NCBI RefSeq assembly: GCF_024713945.1
Contig: NC_134684.1
Coordinates: 412,001 to 476,000 of the forward strand
Reading direction: 5' to 3'
Length of the DNA stretch: 64,000 bases
Origin: Dermatophagoides farinae
Lineage: Eukaryota > Arthropoda > Arachnida > Sarcoptiformes > Pyroglyphidae
The notes below the pieces were generated by a model. That model had not been told where the DNA came from. It ran no database searches and saw only the letters and a list, made by a program, of their open reading frames with translations. A program made the position numbers and the translations under genes. This document shows, piece by piece, positions 9,601 through 63,542 of the stretch. How positions within the stretch are numbered: the first letter of the stretch is position 1; each line of letters starts with the position of its first letter.

Positions 9601-10049
9601 GCTGGCATTTGAGCTTCGTTATTTATATCATCATCATCATTGTTATAACCGGACCAAGATCATAATTCATTTTGTACCATACACACACACACACATATCG
9701 AAACAAACAAACAAACAATGGATGAAAAACTGAATGAAAATTTCGTGTATAATCATCATCATCGTATCATATAAATTGTCTTGTCCAGAATGTCATCATC
9801 AGCCAGTAAAAAGCAAGCAAGTGATAATGGCCATAAATGATGGCATCAAGCTGAGGAAAAGAATTTGTTTTTTGTTTTATTATTCATTTATGGAATATAA
9901 TAATATTCTCTAGGATCTAGATAGAATGAATTGTATATTGCATTCCATAATAATTAAATGTAATTGGCTCAATATCTCATTAGATGTTGTGCGTGCGTCT
10001 GTGTATGTATGTTTTTTACAAATAAATAAAAATAAAGAGAAAAACTTAC
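2451..10049. other. Gene-poor, microsatellite-rich stretch
   Basis: No supported coding exon. The stretch carries many (CA)n, (GT)n, (CAT)n, (CAA)n, (TTGG)n and A/T runs, for example (AC)n at 8221-8244 and (TTGG)n at about 9282-9303. It may be intron of the minus-strand Ig gene whose last visible exon ends at 10050. I looked on the minus strand for further Ig, FN3 or transmembrane exons of that gene and saw none. A GC-richer patch near 6720-6760 is reported as a finding. Confidence 0.5.
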
Positions 10050-28590
<18,541 letters not shown>

Positions 28591-38321: not shown

Positions 38322-39671
38322 AGGCTCAATTCAATTGCACAATTCCGGAATGATTTCGACCATTTTCGACAACAGTAAGTTTGTTGGATGAAAAATAAGA
38401 AAAAAAAATTCAAGCGTTTCTTCATCTTCATCTTTTTATTTGTTAGTGAATCGTATTCCAGATTCGAATGAGAATGAGAATTTGAAGCAAAAGAAAGCAA
38501 AAAAAAAAAACATTTCACCCATGGGAAGAATCATTGTGTGGATGTAAAGTCGTGAATGGCAGTAAAGGGCAGGAGAATGGAATCGAAAATTTATTGCAAA
38601 AATAAAAAAAAAATTCTTGAAAACGAAAACGAAAGAATCAAATGGCCAAAAACGATATGAATCGGGGAGAAAAAAAAACCACAAAAAAATGAAGAAAAAG
38701 ATCATGACCATCTTTAGGAGACTAGGCACATTTGGGAATTTTGAATTTTTTTTTTATTAAATGTCACCCTGATACATTTTTTTCAGAAATAAAAAAAATT
38801 GATAAATCCAGAATTTTAATTATAACAACAACAACAACAACAATTCAGTGGAATTCATTTTTTTCAATTGAAAACCACATCTACATGGCCACTCATGGAG
38901 TGTCTACAATGTGAAAAAAAAATTTTACAAGTTTCATCCATTTAACCATCATCAGTATTTGAAAATTGTAGCGATGTGATGCTGATGATGATGATGACAA
39001 TAATAAAAATGGAACAACAACAACAACAAAAAATGACAAATGTCAACCAAAAATATTTCAAAGCAAAGGATTTTGTTGTTGTTGTTGTTGTTTGTTTCTG
39101 TCGAAATAACAACCAACAAGCATCCATATCCATGAGAGAAAAATATCAAACTGGCACAATGGAATGGGAAATGAATGAATAGGAAAATATCAAGCATCTG
39201 TCACACACAAGCATCATAACGACGACGACGACGACGATGATGACAAAATGGCGGCCAATGAATAATTATATGGGAAAATAAAATTTGCTTGGATACAACA
39301 ACTAATTAAGAATCAAATGATGATGAAATTTGTATCGAAAATCAATCAATCGGTCCAACAATGAAAAAAAGTGTCCAAAAATTCAAATCAAACCAAATAA
39401 TGGTGATCACCAAAAAAAAAAAAAAAAATTCGAAATAAACCAAATCGAAAATGAAACGAGAAAATTTTTTTTCTCTACTTTTTTCTTTTACATTGTAACA
39501 AAAATGAATGGAACACAGTTACAATCATGGCATGATATGATATGATATCTTTCACTTTTTCCAATCACCATCATCATTATTTCGTTTTTTTTCTGGTTCA
39601 TTTTGATTTGATTCTAGTGCTGCTGCTGCTGCTGCTGCTGGAGATATATCGCCCAAAAAGAAGAAAAAACG

Positions 39672-39676
39672 ATTCC
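39672..39676 (+). repeat. Target site duplication, left copy (ATTCC)
   Basis: The five bases directly before the 5' LTR are ATTCC. The same five bases follow the 3' LTR at 44293-44297. A 5-bp duplication is the usual size for Ty1/copia integrases. Confidence 0.95.
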
Positions 39677-39922
39677 TGTTAAAGCAATTTGAACTTTATT
39701 CATCATACATACACATTGTCACATATATAAACGACACATTAATACATGTAGTCAGTTGATTGTTTTCTTCAACACGAACACACACATCATCAACACATCA
39801 CCATTCGTTTTGTTCTTCTTTCTATAGATATCATTTTCTATGTGCTCTATCTGTTTTTCATTTATGTTTACATTTATTATTTTTCGGCTAAATTAATTAA
39901 ACATTATTAAATAATTTCAACA
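39677..39922 (+). repeat. 5' LTR of the copia element
   Basis: 246 bp, starts TGTTAAAGC and ends TTTCAACA (TG...CA with TGTT/AACA inverted ends). By eye it matches 44047-44292 base for base. It carries a TATATAA (39724-39730) and a TCAGTT initiator (39752-39757). Confidence 0.97.
39724..39757 (+). promoter_or_regulatory. LTR core promoter: TATA box and initiator
   Basis: TATATAA at 39724-39730 lies 30 bp upstream of the A of TCAGTT (39752-39757), the arthropod initiator motif. This spacing is the textbook one for RNA polymerase II. It would place the U3/R border near 39754. The same pair is present in the 3' LTR. Confidence 0.65.
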
Positions 39923-39933
39923 GGTTATGGGCC
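39923..39933 (+). other. Primer binding site, initiator tRNA-Met (internal, half-tRNA type)
   Basis: The bases right after the 5' LTR read GGTTATGGGCC. This is the reverse complement of the anticodon-loop region (GGCCCATAACC) of metazoan initiator tRNA-Met. Drosophila copia primes from this internal tRNA region using a cleaved half tRNA rather than the 3' end. The match breaks after 11 bases, where one extra T precedes CAG. Confidence 0.8.
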
Positions 39934-40038
39934 TCAGTTGCCTTCCAAGCTACGTATCGTTCTTTTAAAAATTGTGTTGATAATTAATTTTGTGCTGTTT
40001 CTTCTTTCCATGGTTATTTTTTTCAACAAGAATCGATC

Positions 40039-43000
40039 ATGACGCAATTAAACCCGAAGAATGTTCAATTCTTGAATCTGGATAAAGTACCATACCATCA
40101 TTGGTATGAGTCAATAAAAGAATGTCTCATTGCCATGGAATGTGACCAGTTTATCGATCCCAAATTCGACTATAAGCCGAAAAGTGGCTTAACCAAAGAG
40201 CAGAAGATTGGTATAAACAGTAGCAAAAATTTAATCAAATCATCACTGAACTCTATGGACCGCGAAACAGTCATCAACTGTGAAACGCCATTAGAGATGA
40301 TAAATAAATTGGAATACAAATATCGATCCTCACATACGCGAAACGTTTTTGATCTCTTTAGACAAAACCACAAGATCAAATTTGAAGGCGATATATCAAA
40401 ATTATTCTCAGAGGTGAAAAGAAATTCGTTACAATTAGCCGAAAAGAACCTAAAACTACCAGATTCGTGCATTGTGGCAAAAATTATTGATGTCCTGCCC
40501 AATGAATACAAAGACATATGCAATCAAGTTGAATTGCTCAATATTAAAGATGAATCTAGCATTACAAGTGATGTCTTTGAATCTATGCTCCTCCGTCGTG
40601 AACGTGAGCTTAAAGATAATGAATCCGAATCTACTGGTGTCACCTTGGTAACAGCCAAAAACAGGAAGAAGTCCAATTTGAAATGCAATTTTTGTGGCCT
40701 GAATAATCACCTTGAAAAAGATTGTTACCGTAAAAATCCGTCGAAATCTAAAAATCAAAAACGACCGTTTTATCGACAATCTAATCAGCAAGCGAAGAAA
40801 AAGCATGATAAAAACAACGATGACGATGATAACAATTTAGATGTTGCCACTACCCTTGTGTTAGCTGCATCATTGGTTGCTACAAACAGTCAATCTCCAA
40901 AATTTTTGGCCGATACTGGAGCTAGCTATCACATTGTCAACGATAAAAGCTTATTGGTGAATCATCGACATGCCGAACGCATGATCAGAGGCCTCAAGCA
41001 TAGCACGAAAATCAACGTGATTGGCGATCTAAAATGTGAATTTTTCAACGGAACCATGTGGTCGTCTGGATTAATAACGGATGTGGCGTATGTCCCTGAT
41101 CAACCATTCAATTTAATTTCGGTGGGTCAGCTTTGTCGAAAAGGAGCGAAAATCAACACCAACAAGGATGGCATGGTCATTAGTAGATTCGGCAAACCAA
41201 TAATCGTGGCAAACTGGTCAAAAGACTATGAAAATTTGTTCGATCTACAAATTCGTGTTAAACAAAATGTTATAGCTTCTGCAGCCTCATCTATCGATTC
41301 AATGGCACTTTGGCACGAGCGATGCGCTCATTTTTCAACAAAGACGATCTCAAAAATGATGAATAACAAATTGGTCGATGGTGTTCCGAGTAATATTGGC
41401 AACAATATCTCATTCTGCGTCTCCTGTAAATCGGGTAAAATGACGGGAACCTCCCATCTTAAAAGTTCCAATCATCAATATTTGAAACCTGGCTTAAAGC
41501 TTCATCTTGATATTGGCGGATATACAACAAGATCCATTCACGGAAATATGTATTATCTAGTTGCAGTTGATGAATTTACAAATTACATCAAAATTGCTTT
41601 CATGAAAAATCGACAAGAAACCTTGGAAAAGTTTCGTAAAATAGTTAATGAAATCAAGCTTGATACTGGTAATGATGTCCTGAGCATTCGTACAGATCAT
41701 GGCTCTGAATTTCTTAGCAAAGACTTTAAGTCGTTCATCAATAGTCGAGGTATCCTTCATGAATTAGCCACTGTCAAAACACCACAACAGAACGGGCGGG
41801 TGGAGCGGGCCATACGAAACATTGTTGATCATTCGATCTCCATGTTATCGTCATCAAATTTGCCATTATCCCTTTGGGATGAATCAACAAATTGTTCTGT
41901 TTACGTCATAAATCGTATGTTAAATTCAAGAAATGAAATTCCATTTGAAAAATATTTTGGTCGTCGTGTTGATCTTTCAAATCTCCGTATCTTCGGCTCA
42001 TTAGGCTATGCCTTAATTAAAAACGATCGACATAAATATTCATCAAAGACCAAGAAAGTTTTTATGGTTGGTTATCATTCAAGTAACACTTATCGTGTTT
42101 ATTGTCCAACCAATCGACGTATCGAATTTGCTTGTGACGTGAAATTTAATGAACAGGCTAAATGCCATATATCGACGAACAGCTCAAATATTGACAAAAA
42201 TTTAAATTCAATTAATAACGATGATCAAAATTTATCATTTTCATCAAACGAATCAACCGATTTGAATCATCATGATCAAACTGTTACAAACCCCAACATC
42301 GTTATCGTTAACGGGGGAAGTGACGTCAATTCTATCAACGACCCGATTGGGGGAAGTGACGAAAATGTTATCGATACCGATCTTGATGACAATGATTCCG
42401 AAAATGTTGTAACAACCAATCGACGATCAATTGGACGTCCCCGTGGATCATCAAATCGTAGATATGAAATTAATCCGGAACGAATAAATTCTTTGCGACC
42501 ACGTTCAAATGAAAGTGAAGCTGTTGTGGCCATTGCTGGCAGTGAACCGAATACATTTGATGAAGCTGTAAGCAGTATTGATTCCGACAAGTGGAAACTG
42601 GCCATGCAACATGAATTTAATCAATTAATTAAAAACAAAACGTGGGCTCTGGTTGAATCACCGTCTAATGTACGGGTAATATCAGTTAAATGGGTGTTTA
42701 CAATCAAAGAAGACGGTCGGTATCGTGCGCGTCTGGTAGCAAGAGGTTTCGAACAGGATGATAAATCATCTTATGATTGTTACGCTCCAGTTGTTTGCAT
42801 GGAAAGTGTTCGCTTGTTCTTCTCACTGGTTGCATCCATGCACATGTCATTGGTTCAATTCGATGTATCCTGTGCCTTCCTGAATGGTCAAATTACCGGA
42901 GACGTATATATTAAACAACCACCTGGTTACGATGATGATTCCGGCCGTGTCTGCAAATTATTTCGAGGTTTATACGGATTACGTGAAAGTCCCAGGAGCT

Positions 43001-44052
43001 GGAACTCCGTATTTGATCAAACCATACGTAAGTTTGGCTTTAATTCTACTAATCTCGATCCCTGTTTTTATTTCATGCGAGAAAATGCCGAATTCACAAT
43101 AATGATCATTTACGTCGACGATGGCATCATTGCATCAACGAACAAGAAGAAACCGCTCGAAATTTTTGATAAATTGTCTAAAAGATTTGAAATCCGTAAA
43201 GTTGAATCATCTCGTTTCCTCGGTATTGAATATGAACGAAATTATCGAAATCGGACTATATATTTAAAACAAGAACAATATTTATTGGACAAGTTGAAAA
43301 ATTTTGAAATGAATGAATCGAGACATTCTGATACGCCGTTTGCCTGCGGTACGAATCCATATGACACCGAATCTCCAACCAACGAAGATTATCCATATAG
43401 ACAGGCCGTCGGTGCTCTTCTATATTTGTCCTGTAAAACACGTCCAGATATTGCATATACCGTATCATTATTAGCAAGGTTTACGAACGCACCAAATGAA
43501 ATTCATGTGAAGTCAATAAAACGTCTTTTTCGATATCTTAATGGCACACGTTCGGTCGGTATTTGCTTGGGCGGTGAAGTTCCAAAATCGATTGTGGGAT
43601 ATGCAGACGCTGATCTCGCTGGTGACAAAATTGGTGGAAAAACAACCACTGGACACATTGTTTATTTTGGAGGTCCAATCATTTGGAAGACTCATTTACA
43701 AAAATGTACTATTGATAATACTTGCGAGGCCGAATATATATCTGCATCATTGTGTTCCAAGGACATGAAATATATCCGAAATCAATTGGTCGAAATTGGA
43801 ATCGAAACAGACATTCCTATTTTAAATTGTGATAATCGTTCTACTGTCTATCAAATTTATGGTCAATCTATTACGCCAAAACTTCGTCATATTGCTATCA
43901 AATTTCATTCGATTCGTAACGATGTAATGGACAACAATCTAATCGTAAAATGGATTCCCACCGATCAACAGGTTGCGGACGTACTTACTAAATCTCTCCC
44001 TCCGGCTAAATTTATTCCTTTGGTACGTTTGCTGAATCTGGGGAAGTGTTAA
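40039..44052 (+). CDS. Copia Gag-Pol polyprotein (1337 aa, intact)
   Basis: One uninterrupted frame from the ATG at 40039 encodes the whole polyprotein. Gag spans about 1-210, with a CCHC zinc knuckle C216-C219-H224-C229. The aspartic protease active site is D292-T-G-A-S. Integrase has the HHCC finger H426, H431, C460, C463 and the catalytic triad D491, D553, E589 (exactly 35 residues between the last two). After an acidic Asn/Asp/Ser-rich linker (about 711-800), reverse transcriptase has KWVF at 884, the first catalytic Asp near D942 (FDVSCAFLNG) and YVDD at 1025-1028. RNase H has D1190/D1192, E1230 and D1265. No frameshift or stop separates gag from pol, as in Drosophila copia. All catalytic residues I could check are present. 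The last codon and the stop TAA lie in the first six bases of the 3' LTR. Confidence 0.97.
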   Translation: MTQLNPKNVQFLNLDKVPYHHWYESIKECLIAMECDQFIDPKFDYKPKSGLTKEQKIGINSSKNLIKSSLNSMDRETVINCETPLEMINKLEYKYRSSHTRNVFDLFRQNHKIKFEGDISKLFSEVKRNSLQLAEKNLKLPDSCIVAKIIDVLPNEYKDICNQVELLNIKDESSITSDVFESMLLRRERELKDNESESTGVTLVTAKNRKKSNLKCNFCGLNNHLEKDCYRKNPSKSKNQKRPFYRQSNQQAKKKHDKNNDDDDNNLDVATTLVLAASLVATNSQSPKFLADTGASYHIVNDKSLLVNHRHAERMIRGLKHSTKINVIGDLKCEFFNGTMWSSGLITDVAYVPDQPFNLISVGQLCRKGAKINTNKDGMVISRFGKPIIVANWSKDYENLFDLQIRVKQNVIASAASSIDSMALWHERCAHFSTKTISKMMNNKLVDGVPSNIGNNISFCVSCKSGKMTGTSHLKSSNHQYLKPGLKLHLDIGGYTTRSIHGNMYYLVAVDEFTNYIKIAFMKNRQETLEKFRKIVNEIKLDTGNDVLSIRTDHGSEFLSKDFKSFINSRGILHELATVKTPQQNGRVERAIRNIVDHSISMLSSSNLPLSLWDESTNCSVYVINRMLNSRNEIPFEKYFGRRVDLSNLRIFGSLGYALIKNDRHKYSSKTKKVFMVGYHSSNTYRVYCPTNRRIEFACDVKFNEQAKCHISTNSSNIDKNLNSINNDDQNLSFSSNESTDLNHHDQTVTNPNIVIVNGGSDVNSINDPIGGSDENVIDTDLDDNDSENVVTTNRRSIGRPRGSSNRRYEINPERINSLRPRSNESEAVVAIAGSEPNTFDEAVSSIDSDKWKLAMQHEFNQLIKNKTWALVESPSNVRVISVKWVFTIKEDGRYRARLVARGFEQDDKSSYDCYAPVVCMESVRLFFSLVASMHMSLVQFDVSCAFLNGQITGDVYIKQPPGYDDDSGRVCKLFRGLYGLRESPRSWNSVFDQTIRKFGFNSTNLDPCFYFMRENAEFTIMIIYVDDGIIASTNKKKPLEIFDKLSKRFEIRKVESSRFLGIEYERNYRNRTIYLKQEQYLLDKLKNFEMNESRHSDTPFACGTNPYDTESPTNEDYPYRQAVGALLYLSCKTRPDIAYTVSLLARFTNAPNEIHVKSIKRLFRYLNGTRSVGICLGGEVPKSIVGYADADLAGDKIGGKTTTGHIVYFGGPIIWKTHLQKCTIDNTCEAEYISASLCSKDMKYIRNQLVEIGIETDIPILNCDNRSTVYQIYGQSITPKLRHIAIKFHSIRNDVMDNNLIVKWIPTDQQVADVLTKSLPPAKFIPLVRLLNLGKC
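44040..44046 (+). other. Polypurine tract for plus-strand priming
   Basis: GGGGAAG lies directly before the 3' LTR, where a plus-strand primer is expected. It is short and overlaps the gag-pol coding sequence (codons for Leu-Gly-Lys near the C-terminus). Confidence 0.7.
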
Positions 44053-44292
44053 AGCAATTTGAACTTTATTCATCATACATACACATTGTCACATATATAA
44101 ACGACACATTAATACATGTAGTCAGTTGATTGTTTTCTTCAACACGAACACACACATCATCAACACATCACCATTCGTTTTGTTCTTCTTTCTATAGATA
44201 TCATTTTCTATGTGCTCTATCTGTTTTTCATTTATGTTTACATTTATTATTTTTCGGCTAAATTAATTAAACATTATTAAATAATTTCAACA
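44047..44292 (+). repeat. 3' LTR of the copia element
   Basis: 246 bp, the same sequence as the 5' LTR by eye. It is followed at once by ATTCC (44293-44297). ATTAAA at 44266-44271 could serve as a polyadenylation signal. It supplies the Cys codon and TAA stop of gag-pol. Confidence 0.97.
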
Positions 44293-44297
44293 ATTCC
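44293..44297 (+). repeat. Target site duplication, right copy (ATTCC)
   Basis: Identical to 39672-39676. Confidence 0.95.
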
Positions 44298-58498: not shown

Positions 58499-61400
58499 TT
58501 ATGTATTTAAAGTTTGTTGTTGTTGTTGTTGTTGATGTAATTTGGCCATTGAATGTTGTAGTCGTTTTCGTTGACGACGTTCATCACGTACTTTTTCACT
58601 TAGATGACTCATTTCATTGCGTATTACTCTTAGTTGATCATAGATTTCATATAAAACATCACGATCCATTGATGATCTAGTGTTTAAGGGCAAAAGAAAG
58701 AAAACACGAGTATTAAATAAATAAAAATAAAATTGTACAAAACTCGGCATAATACATACAACGATAATTTGTTAATTTTCTGTGCCAACATGGTCAATGA
58801 ATTTTTTCTTGCATTTCGAGCCGATGGATTTCGATGTAAATGATGACCAAATGATGGTGATGATTTATTTATGCCAAGTATTTCCACATATTGGTAAGGT
58901 TCTAATTCTTGTTGTGGCTCACATGATTCTGCTGATGGATTGGAGTGTTTGTGGTGAATAACAACTTTACCCGATGAAGAAGATGCTGATGATGAAAGTT
59001 GTTGATGTTCACCACCACTACCACGAGAATTATTTGAAGGAAATTTGCATCGATGATATGCATCAATTACATTCAATAATTGCATATCATCATTTGTAGA
59101 TTCTTGTATCAATGTTCCAGTGTCACCAGCCGTAGAGCAAATCGAGTGATTCAAATGATGAATAGGCAAATCTGTAGGTCGATATGGTGGGTTTGTTGTT
59201 AGAATCTGATTTGACCAATATCCTGTTGATCGTTTAGGTAAGGATTTCAAGACAGATTCGATACTCAACTTCGGTGCATCCAGCGGTGGTGCAGGTGGTG
59301 AACGACGATGATGTGGCAGCGGTGGTGGTATTTCATCCATTAAAGGAGGCATCATATGCTGAATCCTATACTGAGGAGGTTTAGGTGGCAATGACATTGG
59401 AACCGGCTGATCTGGTGATGTAATCGACAATGATGATGATTGTGGAGAAAATATTGCAGATGATGATTGCGAGGATGATGATAAAGATGAAGTAACTGTT
59501 GTACCGCTAGTTTGCGGCATTGATGAACTAGAAGATTCGGCCAACGGCGGATGTGTTGTTGTTGTCGTCGACGGAATTGTTTGATGGCGAATTTGTTTTT
59601 GTAATTGTTGATAATATTCACGCCATATTTCTTCATCATTAAAACGAACAACGTATTGAAGATTTTCATTGGATGAATCGGATTGTGGATGGGCATTTTG
59701 ACCAGTGATTTCCAATGAAAAATCCGATCCGTTTCGGGCGTTCGTAGTAGCTGTATTAATTGGCTGTAATTTAGCATTCTCTAATTTTATCATTGCCTGT
59801 GGACAGTATGAACAAAATTTTTATTGAAAAATTTCAATAAAAAAAACATACCTCATAAGTAAAAGAAGTCATTTCTTTGCCAACCGAAAGAATCATCAAA
59901 ACCTTTGGAAATAAAACTAGATAGCAATCTTTTTTTGGTTCTTTCCATAATGGCAACAATAAAATGGTGACGGGTTCCATTTTTATAATTTGTCCATAAG
60001 ATTCAATATTCTATAGACAGTATTTGCAGTTAAATGGTTGTAATCGATTTTACTTTTTTCTTACCATTTTATCAAAATTTTTGATATTTCCCAACATTAC
60101 TTCTAGTTCCATTTCTTTACGTCTGCGTAATTCTAAACAAGACATCTAAAGAAATCATCGATTAATATTGTATGGCAACATTAAATTTAAACATACGGAT
60201 ATTTCACGATAAAGAAAGCCAGCACGTTGAATATCTCCACGATCTGAATGATTTTCCTCAGTATAACGTTGAAGTTCTTGTAATAAAGCTGGATATTTAT
60301 CCAATCGACGAAACGATACACTTAATAATGCAGTGATTTGTACGTTTGGCATCGATGCTAGATTGGCGGATGATGGCATGTTTGCCATCTGATGTGATGG
60401 TGAAGCCAGTGTTTGAGCTAAACTTACCGGCACTGGTTGTGGATTGGCAGCGAAAAAGGCACAGATTTCTTTTCTAAAACACAAAAAAAGATGGTCAATC
60501 AATGGATTTATTCATCAGGAACTTACTTGTATTTTTCAATCACATGAACAAATTTGGCATGATGTGAACAATAGTCAAAATGAGCATGTTTAAATTGTGG
60601 TGCATATTGCATGAATAAACCACCGATACGATTATCTTTGTGCGGAACACTATAGAAAACATACATATAGAATTTTCAATGATGATGATGATCAGATTTC
60701 ATACATAACAAAAAACCAAACCAACCTTTTGGTTTTTTCAATCGATGTCAGAAATCTTCGATGAACAGAACAAATTTCCGTGATTGATCGTAATACGGCA
60801 TTCAATTCAGTTTCGGTGGGTAATCTAGAAAATAGAAATAGAATTGTTCACAGTTTCAGTTATATGAAAAAAAAAATTTGTTGATGTGTTAAAGATTTAC
60901 ATTTTAAACTGATAAACGGGCATTAAATAATGATTGATAGCATCTTGTAATGATTCGATGAATTGTGTTTCTGAATCTTCAATTACTTTCATTACGATTG
61001 AACGATATTCAGCCAGATGATCACCGATTAAATCACCAGTCATCATAGGTGTACCAGGATGGCTATTCCAATCACCAGAATGATATCCACTATATAATTC
61101 TGTTGATCCTGAACGTGGTTCGATGCCACCAGAATCCTGTTGCTGACCGTGTACAAGTTGTTGATATAATGGATCTTGATTGGAAATGGGTTGAACATAA
61201 TTGGCTGGAAACCAACCAGTAATCCCATCCAATGTTCCTTCCCACCATCCACCGGATGGTGTTTGTGTCAATGTTATAATCTTTGAATAGAATAAAAAAA
61301 CAATGAGAATGATTGCGAATAAATGTGTTCCAAAAAACAGACTTACATCATCTTTTTTCATACACAATTCATCATTGTTTGAACCACGAAAATTATGCAA

Positions 61401-61634
61401 TACTCTGACATGAGTAAAATGATTTTTAATCTCTTCATCATTATTTAGATCGATTTTGTCCATTAGATTGTTGTTGAATTGTTCATCGATTTCATTCAAC
61501 AGGCAGGGCGTCGTCTCTTTTATTCGTGGTTTATTGTGTTCGGCAACAATGTTGTTATTGTTTTCAGCTGACGATGATCCACTACCACTATTATCGATAT
61601 TATTGATTTCAACACCATCTAATTTGTTGACCAT
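58499..61634 (-). CDS. Pix: PIX-type Rho guanine nucleotide exchange factor (ARHGEF7/rtGEF ortholog), 9 exons, 873 aa
   Basis: PIX proteins activate Rac/Cdc42, bind PAK kinase through their SH3 domain and GIT proteins near their C-terminus. Exons read from splice sites: 61634-61347, 61280-60901, 60824-60726, 60649-60527, 60473-60197, 60145-60065, 60010-59852, 59796-58760, 58676-58499. All phases agree. Introns are 51-83 bp; all donors are GTAA/GTAT types except intron 3 (GTTGGT). The SH3 domain (75-128) has GGWWEGTLDGITGWFPANYV across exons 1-2. The DH domain is about 185-400 (RRLDKYPALLQELQRY, HSDRGDIQ), the PH domain about 405-540 (DCYLVLFPKVLMIL; last helix EEIWREYYQQLQKQ). A Pro/Ser-rich region, the PIX-specific NDDMQLLNVIDAYHRC (704-719) and a C-terminal coiled coil (about 816-860) with six Gln follow. 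The last residues are LNT. The ATG at 61634 has good context; an upstream ATG overlaps it as a short uORF. Shares its upstream region with the divergent phosphatase. Confidence 0.92.
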
Positions 61635-62135: not shown

Positions 62136-63542
62136 ATGTTTGATCATCATCGTTTGGTCATCTTTTTAGTATTATCATGTGTTCTTATTTTTAAATCGAC
62201 AATAGTTTCTTCTTCTGTAATTCACCATCCAAAACAATCTAATGATGAGAAATTGAAACTTGTTTTCTTGGTAAGTTGATAAGTCTTTACAATAAATGAA
62301 TTCATTTTCACTTTTACTTTCACTTTTAAAGTTTCATCGTCACGGTGAACGAACACCGTATATGCTTTATCCGAATGATCCATATAAAAGAAACATTACC
62401 GAAACTGTTGGTATTGGACAATTGATCAACAAAGGTAAACAACGTCTTTATCGACTAGGTGAATATCTATCGAAACGTTATTATAACAAATGTGGTGATC
62501 GTTTTCCAATCGAACAAAAATCACCAAGAAAAGTATATGTTAGAAGTTCAGGATCAGAACGTTGTTTACAATCCGTGTCATTATTATTGGCTGGAATGTT
62601 TCCACCGGAAGGTGAATGGAAATGGAATCAAAATCTAGGAAGTTTATGGCAACCATTCGCAATACAAACAGTGCCATTTGATCATGATACACTTTTAAAT
62701 CCTGATTATAAATGTCCAGTTGCCGAACATATATTAGACCAGATTTATCATTCGGAAGAAACACAGAATATTCATAGAAAATATCAAAATCTATTGCAAA
62801 AAATTGCCAATTGGACTGGTTATAAACCTGAAGAAATGAATATTGTGAATGCTTCATATATTTATGATGTTCTTTTATCTGAACATAATTTTGGTTTACC
62901 ATACCCTGAATGGCTTGATAATAATATCTGGAACGATTTGAAAAATATAAATAATGAAGTATTTAGATTTAATTCTTCTAACAGAAAAATTCAAAGATTT
63001 CGTTGTGGTTAGTATCTAAAAAAACAAAAAAAAAATTCATTAAATGTGTGTGCGTTTTTTTTTCAATTTCAGGATCAATGTTTGGTGAAATTTACCGACA
63101 ATTGAAAGCCCATTTTGGTAATGATAGCCAATCCAATGATAATCATCATCAGATTTATATCTATTCAACTGTAAGTTGGATTTTTTTTTGTTTCTGGTTC
63201 ATTTTGTTCACTGACTCGATCATTTTTTTATCATCAAAAAAGCACGATGAATGGTTGGCACAATTTTTAAGCTCAATGCAAGTCTATAATGGTATACCAC
63301 CATTTTTTGGTTCAACCATAATGTTAGAAGTGTATCAAGAACCACAGAATAATGGTGAACCATATTTTAAAGGATTCTATTTGAATTCAACAGAAACTGG
63401 CCACGCATATCCATTACAATTTCCTAGCTGTAATGAACCGTGTACACTGACGAAATTTCATGAATCAATCAAAGATTTGATGATTGAAGATCCAAAAATT
63501 CTGGAACATGAATGCTATGTTGATATACAAAAATATTTGTAA
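62136..63542 (+). CDS. Histidine acid phosphatase, lysosomal/prostatic type, 4 exons, 402 aa
   Basis: The enzyme hydrolyses phosphomonoesters at acid pH in lysosomes or after secretion. Exons: 62136-62270, 62332-63007, 63073-63170, 63243-63542; introns are 61, 65 and 72 bp with GTAAGT, GTTAGT and GTAAGT donors and phase-consistent acceptors. Residues about 6-26 form a signal peptide (LVIFLVLSCVLIF). The phosphate-binding motif is R48-H49-G50-E-R52-T-P54, with H49 the expected nucleophile. YVRSSGSERCLQS supplies a further active-site Arg, and the second catalytic motif is H304-D305 in YSTHDEW, split exactly by the last intron between T303 and H304. GMFPPEG, LWQPFAIQTVP and late cysteines match the prostatic/lysosomal branch. 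Length is normal for the family. There is no C-terminal transmembrane helix, so a soluble form is expected. Several N-glycosylation sites (NIT, NWT, NAS, NSS, NST) are seen. AATAAA follows at 63555-63560. Confidence 0.93.

Follow-up and report, generated by a model that had tools for sequence, protein, structure and literature searches.

A complete, low-copy Ty1/copia-type LTR retrotransposon with signs of recent insertion in the genome of the dust mite Dermatophagoides farinae

Copia of Drosophila is the type element of Ty1/copia. It has the domain order protease, integrase, reverse transcriptase (RT) and RNase H, a single gag-pol frame, a 5-bp target-site duplication, and the initiator tRNA-Met as primer tRNA. 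Ty1 of yeast has two frames with a +1 frameshift. For Drosophila copia a half-tRNA primer has been reported (PMC5371799). GalEa-like Copia elements have been described from crustaceans, namely CoRex1 and CoRex2 with LTRs of 217 and 133 bp that start with TGTTA; the Gag of CoRex1 is reported to contain a CX2CX4HX4C motif, CoRex1 has two frames, and the primer binding site (PBS) of GalEa1 and CoRex, TGGTAGCAGAGC, is given as the complement of the tRNA-Met 3′ end (PMC3587641).

Our analysis of a 64,000-nucleotide stretch of D. farinae DNA (the window; positions 412001-476000 of contig C8) identified a complete Ty1/copia-type LTR retrotransposon at window positions 39677-44292. Its features are given below in window positions, with the strand in brackets (a dot where none is assigned) and the basis of each assignment at the end of the line.

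39672-39676 (.), 5′ target-site duplication ATTCC; read from the sequence
39677-39922 (+), 5′ LTR of 246 bp with TG...CA ends; base-by-base identical to the 3′ LTR
39724-39731 (+), TATATAAA, a candidate TATA box for the LTR promoter; read from the sequence
39923-39933 (+), primer binding site GGTTATGGGCC; complement of the tRNA-Met anticodon arm (half-tRNA type)
40039-44052 (+), single gag-pol frame of 1337 aa; ATG at 40039, stop ends at 44052
40684-40725 (+), Gag zinc knuckle CX2CX4HX4C; motif check, CCHC residues 216-229
40903-40923 (+), protease motif (A)DTGA; motif check, with Pol_BBD at 290-369 by Pfam
41314-41817 (+), integrase HHCC zinc motif, then D491, D553 and E589 (D,D35E); Pfam, motifs and PDB integrase matches
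42634-43341 (+), reverse transcriptase RVT_2; Pfam, YVDD at 43111-43122 (residues 1025-1028)
43600-43842 (+), RNase H acidic motifs D, E, D; motif only, without a Pfam match
44040-44046 (+), polypurine tract GGGGAAG; within the last codons of the gag-pol frame
44047-44292 (+), 3′ LTR of 246 bp; identical to the 5′ LTR
44293-44297 (.), 3′ target-site duplication ATTCC; read from the sequence

The original prediction had described an intact and very young copia element with two identical 246-bp LTRs, a perfect ATTCC duplication, an unbroken frame of 1337 codons, and all catalytic motifs of protease, integrase, RT and RNase H. These structural claims held throughout. Base-by-base alignment of the two LTRs, both with TG...CA ends, gave 246/246 identical positions, and ATTCC is present directly on either side of the element. 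The gag-pol frame runs from its ATG to its stop codon without an internal stop, the stop codon being located inside the 3′ LTR and starting 3 nt past the first LTR base. All of the catalytic motifs were found, RNase H by motif and not by Pfam. Six Pfam families scored above their curated cut-offs (Retrotran_gag_2, Pol_BBD, gag_pre-integrs, rve, SH3_retrovirus and RVT_2). Specifically, RVT_2 reached 175 bits against a cut-off of 31.6, and Retrotran_gag_2, with 33.7 bits against a cut-off of 27, is accompanied by the CCHC knuckle. Integrase is encoded ahead of RT in the order protease-integrase-RT-RNase H (RNase H by motif only), and the spacing of D553 and E589 is 35 residues, as in D,D35E. Among solved structures the best match of the polyprotein was the integrase 7z0h (E 1.6e-14, residues 425-795), which we take to be that of Ty1. 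The element thus combines the features of a Ty1/copia LTR retrotransposon, namely an LTR pair with target-site duplication, the domain order, RVT_2, a Gag with CCHC, and a PBS together with a polypurine tract.

A search of the genome for further copies had been suggested with the original prediction. In the 62,435,336-base assembly (22 contigs) we found one more full-length copy on contig C1, a 5′-truncated copy on C5, and several solo or partial LTRs. The LTR search gave 9 matches including the pair in the window. C1 contributed the pair of the full-length copy (97%) and a solo LTR (92%), and the remaining matches were two partial LTRs on C5 (93%) as well as one partial (89%) and one short match (88%) on C3. 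A 1747-bp pol query yielded 12 matches, three with 98-100% identity (C8, C1 and C5) and the other nine in shorter pieces with 65-89%. The LTRs of the full-length copy on C1 are identical at 250/250 positions, its target-site duplication is ATAAG, and its 1337-aa frame begins at the same start. Since this separate copy repeats the layout with other flanks and another target duplication, the layout is far beyond chance. The internal regions of the C8 and C1 copies are 99.2% identical, with 33 substitutions in 4124 bp, and their LTRs differ by substitutions and indels. The solo LTR on C1 is flanked on both sides by AGAAC. On C5 the match covers the internal region only from base 1327 onwards; a 917-codon frame is kept, and the terminal LTR (214 bp) is partly different. 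The C5 copy lies within a local segmental duplication (L031, C5:1613200-1622600), with one unit carrying the truncated element, one carrying a 214-bp solo LTR with ATAGC on either side, and one without an LTR; the last of these is a within-genome empty site. The Copia family of the window is small and of low copy number. In the assembly no other copy exceeded 99.2% identity across the internal region, and daughters of the C8 copy were not seen. With the nearest full-length copy only 99.2% identical internally, the family shows no sign of a very recent burst.

LTR identity over 246 bp is by itself weak evidence of youth and a blunt clock, as zero differences over this length still permit a divergence of about 0.6% per LTR (95%). 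The coding regions of the C8 and C1 copies provide a comparison that does not lean on LTR identity. Between them we counted 27 synonymous and 3 non-synonymous changes (dS 0.032, dN 0.001, dN/dS 0.029), whereas neutral accumulation after insertion predicts about 79% non-synonymous changes, or about 24 of 30. The probability of three or fewer non-synonymous changes among 30 under neutral accumulation is about 1.5e-15. With 27 synonymous against 3 non-synonymous changes, the divergence of the two copies arose during replication under selection, and because little change has accumulated since, the last insertions of both copies are recent; from the three non-synonymous changes, the neutral divergence of each copy is bounded (95%) at about 0.12%. 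Constraint on the C5 copy is weaker (dN/dS 0.20 to C8 and 0.24 to C1). The claim that the element is intact and very young is supported by this comparison.

With high confidence we interpret the locus as a complete, recently inserted and autonomous Ty1/copia-type LTR retrotransposon that belongs to a D. farinae family of low copy number, an interpretation carried by the intact structure, the 5-bp duplication, the second full-length copy, the solo LTR and the separate duplication around it, and the strong constraint on the polyprotein. An older insertion, the two LTRs of which were homogenised by gene conversion, would be compatible with the LTR identity taken alone, and the LTRs of the C1 copy are identical too. 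Conversion of the LTRs would, however, leave internal non-synonymous changes in place, yet these are far fewer between C8 and C1 than expected for changes acquired after insertion. Since the coding argument is independent of the LTRs, gene conversion does not explain away the youth of the element, and we consider it very unlikely to be the source of the identity. The original prediction had also named an assembly artefact as a possible objection. High-identity repeats are prone to misassembly, by which a single element may be placed at two sites or a repeat may be collapsed, and the copies were compared here as assembled. Such an error is nevertheless highly improbable, since the two full-length copies differ by their internal substitutions, by the substitutions and indels of their LTRs, by their flanks and by their duplications. 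In addition, a joined-flank query of the assembly for a second, empty version of the ATTCC site returned 2 matches, both of them the flanks in the window itself. The strong purifying selection seen between the copies could furthermore be the mark of a domesticated polyprotein, with a Copia element turned into a host gene. Full LTRs, PBS, polypurine tract and target duplication at two unrelated sites, together with solo LTRs, are instead those of a mobile element, and we give domestication hardly any credence.

A different alternative concerns present activity only and is compatible with a recently inserted autonomous retrotransposon: the element might be young and yet already silenced by the siRNA pathway of the dust mite. 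D. farinae has been reported to be without Piwi and piRNAs and to control its transposons by Dicer-made siRNAs; these siRNAs were described to map to transposable elements, and each Dicer knock-down derepressed multiple elements (PMC5805368). The words LTR, copia and gypsy are absent from the main text of that study. The coding constraint, on the other hand, shows replication in the recent past. We regard silencing at present as quite conceivable, although we lean slightly towards its opposite. An active family, as originally suggested, would be compatible with these sequence features.

For the recently inserted element we infer transcription, priming and present mobility from its anatomy. The RNA would begin in the 5′ LTR, and one Gag-Pol precursor would be translated and cut by its own protease. 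Reverse transcription would be primed by the 5′ half of a tRNA-Met paired to GGTTATGGGCC, the plus strand would be primed from GGGGAAG, and the D,D35E integrase would insert the copy via a 5-bp staggered cut.

The PBS abuts the 5′ LTR without a spacer, and its sequence is the complement of the anticodon arm, and not of the 3′ end, of tRNA-Met. Its 11-nt core pairs with both the initiator and the elongator tRNA-Met of the genome. Five occurrences of CAGGTTATGGGCC were found in the genome, two of which are the full-length copies of this family, and another one on C9 is located 2.6 kb upstream of an RVT_2 match. An extended pairing of the 38 nt after the 5′ LTR with almost all of the 5′ half of the initiator tRNA-Met (-40.1 kcal/mol versus -31.8 kcal/mol for the elongator) was considered and rejected, as shuffles that kept the core equalled it in 379/2000 cases and the part outside the core was equalled in 584/2000. 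Outside the core, the pairing does not exceed that of shuffled sequences, and we therefore rely on the 11-nt core alone.

The initiator tRNA-Met gene (L038:1792-1932, C8 about 1069945-1070085) contains a 69-nt intron in the usual position, after nucleotide 37 in tRNA numbering, and was located by pattern and by eye because of this intron. The PBS matches the spliced form of this tRNA. A second copy of the first exon lies 297 bp upstream, with no second exon directly behind it. An uninterrupted initiator tRNA-Met gene was not found in the genome with the patterns tried, and neither the window nor L038/L039 gave a tRNA with ARAGORN in its bacterial setting.

The flanks suggest a possible insertion into the final codons of a host gene; inspection by eye of upstream stop-to-stop frames revealed no convincing coding exon. 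Pieces of host genes were observed in the window at 9910-11082 (-), 60897-61634 (-) and 62296-63012 (+), encoding immunoglobulin, SH3 and histidine-phosphatase domains. No PDB hit was obtained for one neighbouring frame of the window. In the same genome a gene fragment agrees almost perfectly with solved Der f 2 across 122 residues (270.8 bits, compared with about 246 for Der p 2). When the flanks are joined (39618-39676 to 44298), one frame reads SAAAAAAAGDISPKKKKKRFQM followed by a stop after a possible splice acceptor (partly by eye), and might represent a terminal exon.

The window element is accompanied by other LTR elements in D. farinae. At least 45 RVT_2 matches were obtained in a profile search of the genome, at least 40 of them over the cut-off. 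Open frames of at least 1247 codons contain at least 19 of the matches above cut-off, the window element and the C1 copy included, and at least 7 of the RVT_2 matches contain stops. In a comparison of six pairs of loci, identity reached 98.8 to 99.9% across about 3 kb in four of them, the two members always lying on different contigs; L003/L004 gave no match, and L005/L001 were at most 68% identical. LTR pairs were sampled at 8 loci, mostly with weaker RVT_2 matches. The pairs of L048, L050 and L054 were without substitutions (one gap in L050), and at the other five loci a pair was unclear or none was found; statements on the youth of other D. farinae LTR families refer to this sample. Other D. 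farinae Copia families share 65-69% DNA identity with the window element in pieces of about 275-580 bp, and 75-89% in a few shorter ones. A PBS starting with GGTTAT after the LTR is also present in L048 and L054. In L008, L029, L053 and L054 the sequence TGTTA comes directly behind a GGGGAG-type tract, and the stop of the long frame lies 3 nt past the tract. L028 and L048 have a GGGGA-type tract and TGTTA as well, but with only 48 open codons before, and in L001-L007 the same locus search found no such combination. An LTR start at TGTTA was seen directly in the family of the window, L048 and L054 only. The integrase zinc domain PF17921, which we take to be a mark of Gypsy/BEL-type elements, gave 32 genome matches, many in long frames.

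The published repeat table of the D. farinae assembly, which we take to be the one analysed here, records 8 LTR elements with 370 bp (0.00%) and 2083 Unknown elements with 203,508 bp, and the repeat methods name LTR_FINDER, RepeatScout and RepeatModeler (PMC11074847, Table 2 and methods). As far as this table goes, intact LTR elements were left out or were placed in the Unknown class. In the literature collection searched we found no paper joining Dermatophagoides, Copia and retrotransposon. Tentatively, D. farinae might carry a set of currently mobile, intact, low-copy LTR families, the present Copia family among them, with comparatively little broken debris and with fast turnover of insertion and loss under siRNA-only control, an idea that we would sooner doubt than accept. 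If true, this turnover would go on although the published table records almost no LTR elements. LTR retrotransposons have in any case recently replicated under selection in a dust mite that is reported to be piRNA-less (PMC5805368), and clean junctions make both siRNA-only transposon control and strain-level insertion polymorphism directly testable in D. farinae.

The element itself is ordinary and represents a further example of an already known Copia type. It resembles Drosophila copia in domain order, in the single gag-pol frame and in the 5-bp duplication. Ty1 has two frames where the D. farinae element has one, and the two are alike in integrase, provided that 7z0h, the best solved-structure match of the polyprotein, is of Ty1 origin as assumed above. 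With the GalEa-like CoRex1/2, as described in PMC3587641, the element shares its nature as an animal Copia, the TGTTA start, and the CX2CX4HX4C motif reported for the Gag of CoRex1. It differs from the GalEa type in having one frame and not the two of CoRex1, and the PBS TGGTAGCAGAGC characteristic of the GalEa clade is replaced by one complementary to the anticodon arm. This half-tRNA-type PBS of the D. farinae element instead resembles the priming reported for Drosophila copia (PMC5371799).
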